DNA of 64,000 nt from Natronomonas moolapensis 8.8.11 (lineage in GTDB: Archaea > Halobacteriota > Halobacteria > Halobacteriales > Haloarculaceae), in NCBI RefSeq assembly GCF_000591055.1, contig NC_020388.1, positions 806,001 through 870,000 on the forward strand. The letters are read 5' to 3'. Positions 4,814 through 11,364 of this stretch are shown here, piece by piece (position 1 is the stretch's first letter; each line of letters begins with the position of its first letter). The notes under the pieces were generated by a model. The model was not told the DNA's origin, did no database searches, and saw nothing but the letters and a program-made list of their open reading frames with translations. The position numbers and the translations under genes are program-made.

Positions 4814-5611
4814 ATGACAGTTACGGCATTCATGCCGGTCCTGAACGAGGCGGGGCGTATCGGGCGGGCCATCTCGTCGCTGCAACGACAGACACACCCC
4901 GTTTCGAGACTCGTCGTGGTCGACGGCGGAAGTACGGATTCGACACAGGAGGAGGTCAAAACGATAGCCGCCGAGACCGACTTCGAGATCGATCTACACG
5001 TACTCCAGGGCGCTGGCGTCCGGTTTTCCTCACAGTTCGGGGCTGAAAAGGCCGCCGAACACCTCCCGAGGAGCGACGGGACGCCGGACGGCATCGTCGT
5101 CCGCCTCGAAGGGGACTCGGCACTCGAGGAGTCCTTTGTCGAGACAGCCGTCGAGACGCTCGGCGAGGAGTCCTACAGCGTCTTCGGCGGGCCGGTGTCG
5201 CCCCACGAACCGATGGAGAACCCCGTGATCAAGCGCTTCTTTACGTTCTATCAGAACGCCGAGCGATTACCGAAAGGTCGCGGGATGGCGTTCAGAGCGG
5301 ACGACTTCTACGCGGTCGACGGCTATCGGATGGAGCCCGACGAGGACATCCGAAGCTCCGAGATCGACTGTCTCGAGGACGGGATCTTGGTCTCGAAGCT
5401 CCAAGAACGCGGCGAGGCGGCGTTCAGTCACGAAACCTGCGTCTACAGCACCGTACCGTCCACGTCGGCGACCTCGCCGCGACGGTGGTGGGTCGCCGCC
5501 AAAATCGAGCGGGAGATGGGTCCGACCAGTTACTTCACCCGGATCGCGAGCCCAGTAAATAAGCTGTCGTACGCTGCCGAACGGCTGTTCGAAACGAACG
5601 TCAGTGAGTGA
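4814..5611 (+). CDS. Family 2 glycosyltransferase
   Basis: A 265-residue cytoplasmic GT-A enzyme. It begins with the GT2 nucleotide-sugar motif (TAFMPVLNEAGRIGRAISSL), followed by VVDGGSTDST near residue 37 and an acidic metal-binding element VRLEGDS near residue 96 in place of a plain DxD. An ED-containing acceptor loop (CLEDGIL) comes later. No C-terminal membrane helices are seen. An AT-rich box, CTTTTAATAT at 4775-4784, lies about 30 bp before the start and is a plausible TATA. With the preceding flippase-like gene it probably acts in surface glycan or glycolipid synthesis; donor and acceptor cannot be read from the sequence. Confidence 0.85.
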   Translation: MTVTAFMPVLNEAGRIGRAISSLQRQTHPVSRLVVVDGGSTDSTQEEVKTIAAETDFEIDLHVLQGAGVRFSSQFGAEKAAEHLPRSDGTPDGIVVRLEGDSALEESFVETAVETLGEESYSVFGGPVSPHEPMENPVIKRFFTFYQNAERLPKGRGMAFRADDFYAVDGYRMEPDEDIRSSEIDCLEDGILVSKLQERGEAAFSHETCVYSTVPSTSATSPRRWWVAAKIEREMGPTSYFTRIASPVNKLSYAAERLFETNVSE

Positions 5612-5693: not shown

Positions 5694-5891
5694 TCACTCG
5701 CTGTCGGCCGGTTGTTTCAGCACCCGAACTGCCAAGCGTATGTAAATCACACCAATGATCCGGATTGCACGAAGAGCTCCCGTGTTCCACTCGTACGTGT
5801 CCGGCTGCTCATGCGCCATGCTGGCTCCAAATTCTAAGTACTTGTTCGCAGATAGAAACTGTATCACGCCGATTGCTCCGATGGATTTCAT
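5694..5891 (-). CDS. Small hydrophobic protein, 65 residues
   Basis: Beginning at the ATG complementary to 5889-5891, the frame encodes MKSIGAIGVIQFLSANKYLE and ends in RAIRIIGVIYIRLAVRVLKQ. This gives a mildly hydrophobic N-terminus and a basic amphipathic or membrane helix at the C-terminus. The frame stays open further upstream, but that part is Arg/Pro-rich and overlaps the hairpin-rich stretch, so the shorter start is preferred. I do not recognise the family. A strongly structured region with its own TATA box lies directly upstream on the same strand and could be its leader. Confidence 0.45.
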   Translation of the reverse strand: MKSIGAIGVIQFLSANKYLEFGASMAHEQPDTYEWNTGALRAIRIIGVIYIRLAVRVLKQPADSE

Positions 5892-5901
5892 GACCAACGC
5901 G

Positions 5902-5927
5902 TGACATCCTCCGCGGCGTAAACGGAG
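5902..5927 (-). mobile_element. Possible remnant right end of an IS200/IS605-type element
   Basis: TGACATCCTCC at 5902-5912 is identical to the outer end of the TnpB element at 63150-63160, and is followed by GCGGCGTAAACGG, resembling the GCCGTGAACGG of that element's terminal hairpin. Here the stem is reduced to CTCCG/CGGAG. No tnpB coding remnant was recognised to the right of it. The match is short and could be chance. Confidence 0.25.
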
Positions 5928-6149
5928 CAGGATCGAAGGTCTCGAAGCAACCGGGCGACGCCCGACGACGGCGCGGGGTCCCTCGACAGAGGGACCTCGG
6001 CCTGTTATTGGTCGGGCGTCGGACGGACTCCCGCGGTCGCCAGCCATCGGGGGTCAGCGGACCCCGTGTGTGAACCAACGCCACGAGCGATACTACAGTA
6101 GCGATCGGAAGACACTGCACACTCGATCGCACGACGGCAGTGCGATCGA
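5902..6149 (-). ncRNA. Candidate structured RNA or structured leader
   Basis: In the minus-strand direction the stretch contains: a 10-bp hairpin (6149-6140 with 6132-6123, 7-nt loop); a 6-bp hairpin (6065-6060 with 6055-6050, 4-nt loop); and an 11-bp stem (6022-6012 with 5967-5957) enclosing a perfect 8-bp hairpin (5996-5989 with 5984-5977, 4-nt loop). A TATA-like ACTTATACC on the minus strand at 6172-6180 lies about 25 nt before the first hairpin, the spacing expected for an archaeal transcription start. The 3' end carries an 11-nt match to the right end of the TnpB element at 63150. It could be a free RNA, an orphan TnpB guide-RNA scaffold, or a leader of the 65-residue gene. Confidence 0.4.
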
Positions 6150-6392
6150 TGTGTAATCACTTCCGATGGTTGGTATAAGTGGTGGGGTTCCAGACCGGCC
6201 ATCTCCGGTGGTTTGTGCCACGGCGTACGCGGGTCACACCCAGCGTGAACGCCGAGATTCGCCCGCTGAATCACGATAGCCCGGACGCTGGCGAACGCGT
6301 TCAGCGTCGAACCGTACAGCGGCGAACTCCCGCCAGGGAAGCGGCCACGACCGACGTCCACGCTGGATCCCACGGTTTCAGCCGCGAGTAGC

Positions 6393-7622
6393 TCAACCGC
6401 CGTCCGTCCCGACCACGCCAGCGTCCGTCGGGTTCGGTCCCCCGTACTGCTCGACGAGCGCGTCAAGTCGGCTCGGATCGTCGGCTCCGACAAGCGGTTC
6501 TTCGGCGGTTCTACACGGCTCGGCGACGCCCAGGCGCTCGCAGACGCGGTCGGCCGTCACCTCCGCCATCTCTCGGTACGTGGTCAGCTTTCCGCCGACA
6601 ACGCTGTGGAGGTTCGAGACGCCCTCGTCGCCGTGATCGAGTATGGTAAACCCACGGGAGATGCCACGGCGGTCGGCGGCCGCCTCGTCGGGTTCGTACA
6701 GCGGGCGGACCCCCCACCACGTCCGACGCTCCGGTGCCTCGGCGACCGCGGGAAGCATCGCGGCACACTCCTCGATGGAGCGCTCGATTTCCCACTCGGC
6801 GGTCTCGTACGTTTCGGGGGTGGAGACGGGCACGCTCGTGGTGCCCACGACGACTTCGCCCTCGTGGGGCAGGACGATGTCGCCGTCGTCGGGGTCGCGA
6901 CACCGGTTCAACACCGGCCCGAGCCCGTCGTACTCGAGTGAAACCATCACACCGCGGCTCGGAGCCATCCCGACCGTACAACCGGCCATCTCGGCGATCC
7001 GGTCGGCCCACGCCCCGGTCGCGTTGACGACGTGGGTCGGTTCGATGTGTTCGTCGACGCTTCCACCGACGTCGACCGCGGTGATCCCGTCCGCCCCGGT
7101 CTCGATCGCCTCGACCGGCGCGTGTGGGTGCACGTCAGCCCCGTGGGCCGCCGCGTCGGCCGCGTTTGCCGCCACGAGCCGCGACGGGTAGACGACGCCG
7201 TCCGGGACGCGAAAGGCCTCGACGACCGCATCGGAAAGCCCGTCCACGAGATCACGGGCCGCGTCGCCGTCCAGGCGCTCGGTTTCGATGCCGGTCTCCT
7301 CGCAGGCGGCCAGTTTCGTTTCGAAGTACGCCGCGTCGTCGCCCTCGAGTCGGACGAACAGCCCACCCGTCTCGCGGACACAAGCACCGGCGATTTCGCG
7401 GAGGGTACGGCTTTCGGCGAGACACTCGGCCGCGCCGGACGCGTCGGACTCGGCGTACCGGGCACCGCTGTGCAACAGTCCGTGCGATCGGCCGGAGGTG
7501 CCGCTACCTAACCCGCCCCGCTCGACGAGCGTCACGTCTACTCCCCGCAACGCGAGGTCGCGGGCGATTCCGGTTCCCGTCGCGCCACCGCCGATCACGA
7601 GGACGGTCGGGTCGGCGCTCAT
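6393..7622 (-). CDS. GlpA-like FAD-dependent glycerol-3-phosphate dehydrogenase, short form
   Basis: A 409-residue DAO-fold flavoenzyme. It has an N-terminal FAD motif VLVIGGGATGTGIARDLALRG, the family signature GLGSGTSGRSHGLLHSGARY, VVNATGAWAD, TWWGVRPLYEP and SVVGGKLTTYREMAE, all characteristic of anaerobic glycerol-3-phosphate dehydrogenase subunit A. Full-length haloarchaeal GlpA is about 570-580 residues, with a C-terminal cysteine-rich iron-sulfur domain. This protein stops shortly after the catalytic part (PNPTDAGVVGTDGG) and that domain is absent. No glpB, glpC or glpK lies nearby. It may be a naturally short paralogue or a product of 3' truncation; electron transfer to the membrane would then need another partner. 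Confidence 0.78.
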   Translation of the reverse strand: MSADPTVLVIGGGATGTGIARDLALRGVDVTLVERGGLGSGTSGRSHGLLHSGARYAESDASGAAECLAESRTLREIAGACVRETGGLFVRLEGDDAAYFETKLAACEETGIETERLDGDAARDLVDGLSDAVVEAFRVPDGVVYPSRLVAANAADAAAHGADVHPHAPVEAIETGADGITAVDVGGSVDEHIEPTHVVNATGAWADRIAEMAGCTVGMAPSRGVMVSLEYDGLGPVLNRCRDPDDGDIVLPHEGEVVVGTTSVPVSTPETYETAEWEIERSIEECAAMLPAVAEAPERRTWWGVRPLYEPDEAAADRRGISRGFTILDHGDEGVSNLHSVVGGKLTTYREMAEVTADRVCERLGVAEPCRTAEEPLVGADDPSRLDALVEQYGGPNPTDAGVVGTDGG

Positions 7623-8224: not shown

Positions 8225-9022
8225 TCACTGCCAAACGTCGCTGGTACAGTCGCCGCCGGGCCAGCGGATCTCGTGGGCACGGGCGGGGCCACCCGGTGCG
8301 TCGCCGAAGTCGACGAGGAACTCCTCGTCGAGGTCGAGTCGGCCTTCATCCGGAAACACGTCCGCTTTGAACATCAGCGACCCCTCCTCGGCCATCTCCG
8401 GGAAGAACTGGTTGTCCCACGACGAAAACAGCGATGTCGTCCAGTAGAGCCGCGTTCCGTCCCGCGAGAGCTGGAGCATCTGTGGCGCGCCCCGAATCTC
8501 TTTGTCCTGTATCTCTTGGCGATCGCCGAACAGGCCGCCGGCCCACACCCGATCGACCAACCGCGGATTGGCCGCGTCGCTAACGTCGTACATCCGCACG
8601 TCGCCGTGGAGCCAGTTCGAAAAGAACAGATACTGGTCGTCCAGCGACAGCAGGATATCGATAATAAGCGGCGGCACTGGCATGTCCCAGTCCTCGTGTT
8701 CGCGGGGGTCCTCGTCGATGACGACGTCCCACTCCCACGCCCCGTCGGTGCTCTCGTAGAAGCGAATGATGTTCGAGGAGAGCGCCGCCCCGACGTATCC
8801 CTGCGTTTCCTCGGGGTTGTGGCTCATCCGAACTTCGAGCGGGATCCGGCCTGCATCGCCGAATTCGAGCGTCTGTACGTGCTCGCGGTCGTCCCACGAC
8901 CAGATGTGGATACTGTCGCCGTAGTTGCCGGCCTCGACGTCGTCGAGGTCGAACCCCGGATAGTACGTGTTCGGTGCTGCCCATTCACTGGAGATGAGCA
9001 CGTCGTAGCGGGGCTGATACCA
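8225..9022 (-). pseudogene. SBP56 / methanethiol oxidase, C-terminal part (disrupted gene)
   Basis: This encodes the C-terminal 265 residues of a selenium-binding protein of the SBP56 family, beginning WYQPRYDVLISSEWA and running through DDVEAGNYGDS, SNWLHGDVRMYDVSD and RLYWTTSLFSSWD to the end. Bacterial SBP56 proteins include a copper-dependent methanethiol oxidase. The N-terminal part is at 10759-11364. The two halves are separated by a 1.7-kb TnpB element and would join in frame, ...GAT TAC | TGG TAT..., to give a 467-residue protein, the usual family length. An open frame runs on into the element, so a hybrid product is conceivable but is unlikely to fold. Confidence 0.9.
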
Positions 9023-9074
9023 TTGACTTCCTCCCACCCCTGAAGGGGTGGGATTCCTCCGGTGGGGATTTCGG

Positions 9075-10454
<1,380 letters not shown>

Positions 10455-10482
10455 CGCTGTACCAACGTGTAGCTCCTGAACC

Positions 10483-10490
10483 TATATATA
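10483..10490 (+). promoter_or_regulatory. Symmetric TATATATA box between tnpB and the small gene
   Basis: A self-complementary TATATATA lies 28 bp before the tnpB start on the minus strand and 23 bp before the ATG of the small gene on the plus strand. One TATA box could serve both directions and give leaderless or near-leaderless transcripts. Confidence 0.5.
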
Positions 10491-10513
10491 AGTTGGGTAT
10501 GTATGGGTTAAGT

Positions 10514-10660
10514 ATGGGTGAGACGAATAAGATATATGTCGAGATGGACGACGACGAGCAGTACGAGGAGTTGAAGCGGATCAAGAAGAAACACGGGTTG
10601 ACATGGAAGGGACTGCTATTGCAGGGAGCGCGGCGAATGGAAGGTGACGACGCGGTGTAG
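10514..10660 (+). CDS. Small ribbon-helix-helix-like protein carried by the TnpB element
   Basis: A 48-residue ORF, divergent from tnpB and wholly inside the element. The protein starts MGETNKIYVEMDDDEQYEEL and continues with a basic KRIKKKHGLTWKG helix-turn-helix stretch and a short hydrophobic helix, LLLQGARRME. The plan of one strand then two helices resembles small ribbon-helix-helix DNA-binding proteins. Such a protein could repress the shared promoter or act as a cofactor of transposition. Short genes of this kind next to haloarchaeal TnpB genes are familiar but uncharacterised to my knowledge. The fold assignment is inferred from pattern only. Confidence 0.6.
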   Translation: MGETNKIYVEMDDDEQYEELKRIKKKHGLTWKGLLLQGARRMEGDDAV

Positions 10661-10758
10661 GCGGTGGGAAATCCACGCCGGCCATCGGACGTGGTTAGCT
10701 TCCCTGTTGTCGGCTTCATCCCACGGCTAAAGCCGTGGGCTTTCGCCTCGCTACCGCT

Positions 10759-11364
10759 GTAATCGTAGTTCATCTCCATCGCACCGCGGTCGGCTTCCCA
10801 GCGGCCGTCGATGCTGAAGTCCTCTTGATCCAACTGGAGGAAGCCGCCGGGGAGTTCACCGTCAGCGTCGCCCAGCATGCTGATGACGATTTTGCCACCC
10901 GGGACGCAGTGAACGGTGTGTGGTGCCGAGAGGTCGTACTCGAACAACTCCTCAGGTTCGATGACGGTCACGATCTCCGGGTCGCGTGGCTCCTCGGCGT
11001 CAATGACGTGGATGCGCGAGGAACGCTGTCCGGGGACGATCAGATACTGTCGCGACAGTCCCTCCGCGTGACAGGACGACGAGCAGGCGTTCCAGCCGAA
11101 GTGGTGGAGTTCGTCGCCCTTGTTCGGCATCTCTACGGTGTCGATGAGTTCGCTGTACGTGTCCGAGGCAGGATCAAGATCGACGACGCCGACGAATCCC
11201 GGACCGTCGTTTTGCATCCCCACTCGTGGAGCCATCACGTACGCCGTTTGCTCCCGACCGCTCTCGGTCCGCATCGCCGCCGGCGTCGGGTACCCGGGCC
11301 CCCCGACATCGCGGTGTTCGTGGGCGTGGTGTTCCGTGGTGTCATCGGAGTTATCAGTACTCAT
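10759..11364 (-). pseudogene. SBP56 / methanethiol oxidase, N-terminal part (disrupted gene)
   Basis: The first 202 codons of the SBP56 gene. After an acidic, His-rich haloarchaeal N-terminus the family core begins at AYVMAPRVG. It includes DELHHFGWNACSSSCH, with the conserved Cys and His region of selenium-binding proteins, and RIHVIDAEEPRDPEI. The gene breaks after MEMNYDY at codon TAC, where the TnpB element starts. Both halves otherwise look undamaged, which points to a recent insertion. An AT-rich box at 11386-11396 lies about 22 bp upstream of the ATG and is the likely promoter. Confidence 0.9.

Follow-up and report, generated by a model that had tools for sequence, protein, structure and literature searches.

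In Haloquadratum walsbyi, palindrome-associated transposable elements (PATEs) have been described that lack a transposase and terminal inverted repeats, carry near-terminal palindromes related to IS605-type ends, occur in several copies per genome and are often invaded by MITEs and other small mobile repeats (PMC3119063). Haloquadratum also carries SMRs, repeats of 80-110 bp with terminal inverted repeats that insert into PATEs and are described without target duplication and without a related transposon (PMC3119063). The locus analyzed here lies in a window of 64,000 nucleotides, bases 806001-870000 of the single 2,912,573-bp contig of Natronomonas moolapensis, and occupies the gene-free gap between genes for a family-2 glycosyltransferase (4814-5611) and a FAD-dependent oxidoreductase (6393-7622). 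A first-pass annotation had proposed this hairpin-rich stretch as a candidate transcript with its own TATA box, be it a new structured RNA, an orphaned guide-RNA scaffold or the leader of a small protein. We conclude that it very probably consists of two transposase-free mobile elements, one nested in the other, namely an IS630-type MITE inside an IS605-type PATE, a reading that removes a false RNA-gene candidate. Both kinds of element are known in haloarchaea; the small one is unusually widespread.

The outer element and its ends

Window positions 5700-6400, compared with the rest of the own genome, matched 30 places: four copies of about 380 bp, about twenty stand-alone copies of 6093-6177, and several places that matched the right-end part. 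The four long copies were 84-100% identical, 379-417 bp in length and devoid of a transposase ORF. Their alignment revealed sharp shared boundaries, with GTGACATCCTCCGCGGCG.. at position 5901 and ..TGAATCACGATAG at position 6279, outside of which the flanks were unrelated. On account of this multi-copy repeat status, the reading as a new RNA gene was rejected.

The window copy spans 5901-6279 on the minus strand and, read in that direction, begins with the 5-nt target motif CTATC (6275-6279), which is included in these boundaries; the left end itself lies at about 6274. The left-end region (6221-6279, minus strand) comprises CTATC and the near-terminal palindrome CTCGGCGTTCACGCTGGG and matches the left ends of the autonomous elements L077, L078 and L079 as well as those of PATE relatives. 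The element closes with ..GGAGGATGTCAC, its right-end region (5901-5983, minus strand) consisting of two hairpins within a stem that ends in GGATGTCAC and representing the last ~82 nt of a tnpB-type guide-RNA/right-end region. Terminal inverted repeats are absent, the ends CTATCGTG.. and ..GGATGTCAC not being complementary. The near-terminal palindromes are instead related to IS605-type ends, and both ends match tnpA/tnpB elements. The right end shares about 80% identity across ~82 nt with two elements found in the own genome, C1:2577081-2578981 (L132) and C1:283839-285563 (L133), each of which encodes a Y1 transposase and TnpB; the former measures 1901 bp from CTATC to GTCAC and has its TnpA at C1:2577257-2577613. 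The left end has its counterpart in elements of 1443 bp that occur in other genera and encode an intact TnpB (L077, L078).

The outer element is very probably what remains of an IS200/IS605-type element, both of its ends, after loss of the tnpA/tnpB genes and of most of the guide-RNA core. By analogy with the IS605 mechanism, a Y1 (HUH) TnpA provided in trans would recognize the near-terminal hairpins as single-stranded DNA and excise the element, which would then be inserted on the 3' side of a CTATC-like target and leave no target duplication. Joining the flanks of all four copies gave no clear restored gene and no empty site, nor did we find two strains that differ by the presence of the outer element. 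Its mobility is therefore argued from copy number and ends.

Elsewhere in the window, a gene at 8225-11364 that resembles those for selenium-binding protein or methanethiol oxidase appears to be split. Its N-terminal part corresponds to the ORF at 10402-11364 (..AMEMNYD), its C-terminal part to the ORF at 8225-9259 (WYQPRYDVLISSEW..), and a TnpB gene (9075-10454) is located between both; this is likely an IS1341-type insertion. In addition, a 213-residue ORF on the minus strand at 1799-2440 is, judged by eye, presumably an IS6-type (ISH15-like) transposase.

The inner element

Nested in the outer element is a snap-back MITE of about 80 bp (6093-6178, plus strand, core 6096-6175), one of about 24 genome copies, which scored 92.3 bits with a covariance model built for the family. 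Its consensus, CTATAGTAGCGATCGGAAGACACTGCACACTCGATCGCACGAYGGCAGTGCGATCGATGTGTAATCACTTGCGATGGTTACTATAG, is the sequence found alone at the twenty or so other places of the own genome. PATE relatives free of the MITE (L068-L071) read uninterrupted GTTAGTAT (..TTAGTATCGC..) through the insertion site, whereas the window lineage reads ..GTTA-[TAGTAACC...GCTACTG]-TAGTATCGC... The comparison shows a TA duplication by the MITE, with the two TA dinucleotides at 6094-6095 and 6176-6177; of 32 aligned MITE copies, 23 were flanked by TA at both ends. An IS630 transposase acting in trans would have placed the MITE into an ancestral PATE, choosing a TTAG site and duplicating its TA; afterwards the composite would have spread to four places.

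DDE_3 (IS630-type) elements of ~1060 bp with termini CTATAGTAG.. were detected at L181, L182 (two), L183, L197 and L184, the last being an element of 1064 bp in the own genome. The first 8-9 nt of the MITE ends are identical to those of the IS630/DDE_3 elements, and each of the two ends remains similar up to 30 nt. Past the nine bases in common, the 30-nt ends agreed on average at 10.7 of 21 positions, compared to 5.5 for shuffled sequences (p<1e-4). Judging from these ends, IS630-type transposons are the likely driver of the MITE. Several MITE-rich genomes (G132, G151, G394) gave no DDE_3 match, so that it is the common termini that tie the MITE to IS630. The IS630-type copy of the own genome appears to be frame-disrupted, and from the reading frames the MITE may now be immobile there. 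A further IS630 subgroup with different termini (L192, L206, L186) was discarded, its ends ATACTGAGGG.. not matching those of the MITE. At L181 (1358-2505) and L183 (700-2010), IS630-type elements interrupt copies of the MITE at CTAG sites; these elements may mobilize the very family into which they have inserted.

With the covariance model, the MITE was found in 159 of 392 Halobacteriales genomes from 42 of 95 genera, with per-genome counts reaching at least 11. A covariance model is now available for a very widespread haloarchaeal MITE, which roughly 40% of the sampled Halobacteriales genomes contain. Haloarchaeal plasmids contributed 213 places on 53 replicons, mostly without an annotated gene beneath the best match, and phage records contributed none. 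A single plasmid of Haloarcula hispanica accounts for nine copies. A contig search with the own-genome form gave no match, and the form of another genus led to seven named loci. No Rfam family matched the MITE, nor did we find a description of the family in the literature searched.

Covariation was analyzed in an alignment of 32 MITE sequences from several genera with 35 pairs, in which 89.6% of the cells were paired. Both-sided changes occurred in 13 of the 35 pairs, compared to 6.4 expected from shuffles, and none of 500 shuffles reached as high a value; sliding the pair partners destroyed the signal. The covariation of the MITE is real but, taken on its own, no sign of an RNA. In the inner stem, where conservation within the family is highest, 97.7% of the cells were paired, and in the terminal repeats 82.7%; of the 16 inner pairs, six were invariant and three showed double changes.

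Two related proposals draw on these data. The 86-nt hairpin could serve the host as a functional RNA or as a protein-binding site that happens to be dispersed, such as a terminator, an sRNA or a nucleoid site, as its occurrence in nearly half of the genera, its compensatory changes and its position on plasmids, nearly always outside annotated genes, would allow. Its copy number and positions vary, however, and the insertion into the PATE with TA duplication and the IS630-matching termini mark it as a MITE; moreover, a palindromic MITE can covary because the same transposase binds both ends. We regard a host function of this kind as quite unlikely. What does speak against a purely mobile-element reading is that the inner stem is better conserved than the terminal repeats: recognition of the terminal repeats alone accounts for the outer arms, not for the conserved inner stem, which may be a site for the transposase or a host factor, or an RNA. 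There is a small chance that selection maintains the inner hairpin, for instance in the role of small RNA, terminator or protein-binding site, and that the MITE is a domesticated haloarchaeal repeat and not merely a passenger.

Stems, guide-RNA core and small ORF

All four stems previously claimed are present in the sequence. The 10-bp perfect stem (6123-6132/6140-6149), which is also seen in the covariation, is the inner stem of the MITE; the 6-bp hairpin GGGGTC/GACCCC (6050-6055/6060-6065) lies in the PATE interior; and the 8-bp hairpin GGTCCCTC/GAGGGACC falls within 5977-5996 (minus strand). The enclosing 11-nt pair (6040-6050/6163-6173) is 91% complementary. This stem exists but is peculiar to the window copy and does not occur in the three sister copies; its 3' arm is part of the nested MITE, and the conserved partner of that arm is the other MITE end at 6093-6111. 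Folding of the minus strand of 5899-6282 gave -178.2 kcal/mol, compared to -156.0 +/- 5.6 for dinucleotide-preserving shuffles (z = -3.95), none of 100 shuffles being as stable. The stable stems are real, yet they are part of dispersed repeats. Indeed, the most stable stem of the stretch, 6093-6178, is the MITE with its about 24 copies, and the interpretation as a new structured RNA finds no support. In the nested elements the stems would act as DNA hairpins and not as RNA. Apart from a tRNA, no Rfam family reached its gathering score in the window, and positions 5700-6500 gave only chance-level matches. As to the promoter, the TATA-like word ACTTATACC is indeed found on the minus strand at 6172-6180; it corresponds to a degenerate, mutated MITE terminus plus target-site flank, for which the three sister copies read AGTTATAGTAACC, and probably has no promoter activity.

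In other genera, ORF-less PATE relatives of 490-570 bp were found (L068, L069, L070; L071 and L073 are similar). Their core of ~195 nt is related to the 3' regions of tnpB at L122, L123 and L129; about 200 nt of it are lost from the window PATE, which retains the last ~82 nt of the region. The idea of a guide-RNA scaffold orphaned by the loss of its element captured the nature of the 3' part, an IS605/TnpB right end whose ~490-bp relatives keep ~195 nt, but not the extent of what is left in the window copy. Extended to a functional proposal, the minus strand would make a TnpB omega-RNA with which the TnpBs of the genome, acting in trans, cleave the site that lacks the insertion and so preserve the element. 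Intact TnpB elements of the own genome share the right end over these ~82 nt at 80% identity, the genome yielded 22 TnpB matches, and archaeal omega-RNAs are expressed (PMC12558985). About 130 nt of L068, L070 and L073 also scored against the Rfam family HgcC (RF00062) much as the TnpB locus L122 does, with E values of 2e-4 to 0.04 that lie below the curated threshold. The window copy, however, is without most of the ~195-nt core: a complete omega-RNA scaffold, which would extend at least ~130 nt upstream from the right end and is kept in L068, L070 and L073, is absent, a search of the window with HgcC gave no match, and no tnpB gene is located upstream within the element. We consider a working guide RNA at this locus very unlikely.

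The HgcC matches, all below the curated threshold, were located at L122:1812-1932, L070:1869-1997, L068:1364-1491 and L073:1742-1866. HgcC itself may be a TnpB omega-RNA family. With IS605-type ends and a ~195-nt guide-RNA-like region, L068, L069, L070, L071 and L073 are candidate guide-only elements, and the ~490-bp PATEs with this region and without tnpB are good material for studying guide-only elements that may use TnpB in trans. Comparison of L031-L037, L069 and the window with L068, L070 and L073 distinguishes two right-end subtypes, which differ in the loop of the terminal hairpin, where a ~45-nt segment with two hairpins has been either gained or lost.

The TnpB-type right end (~5901) and, following it, a 65-residue ORF (5697-5891, minus strand) were both located as annotated. 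The ORF has homologues at L137-L143 and matches the second of the two repeats in haloarchaeal proteins of ~130 residues (L137, L138, L140, L141, L143), the alignment starting at the first codons past the PATE end (ALVM compared to ALLM). The first repeat, corresponding to the N-terminal half, was sought upstream of the PATE left end and not found there. The ORF is best read as a truncated gene, a C-terminal half presumably 5'-truncated at the PATE right end. That the stretch is a structured leader regulating the 65-residue protein, as might be suggested by its first ATG, which shares the strand of the right end and is no more than about 10 nt away from it, is extremely improbable, given homologues of ~130 residues whose first repeat is missing here, a reading frame that starts at the insertion junction, and unrelated flanks at the three other copies of the element.

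Comparison with known systems

The window PATE fits the definition given for the Haloquadratum PATEs (PMC3119063). It presumably belongs to another sequence family and differs in that all four copies of its type carry an IS630-type MITE. With the autonomous elements L132 and L133 it shares the right end at 80% over ~82 nt, the terminal GGATGTCAC and the left-end CTATC; unlike these, it is without genes and its core is shortened. Longer PATE relatives score weakly against HgcC (RF00062), as does a TnpB locus, and in this they resemble the Halobacterium TnpB omega-RNAs (sotRNAs); the window copy, without most of the scoring region, has no score.

The inner element behaves like IS630 (Tc1/mariner-like) elements and their MITEs with respect to TA duplication at CTAG-like sites, and its terminal repeats CTATAGTAG.. 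match the haloarchaeal DDE_3 elements L182, L183, L184 and L197. Unlike IS630 insertion sequences, it is 80 bp long and non-coding, and its inner palindrome is absent from their ends. Its size range, terminal inverted repeats and insertion into a PATE are those of the SMRs. As it has both a target duplication and a related transposon, however, it is a MITE and not an SMR in the scheme developed for Haloquadratum (PMC3119063).
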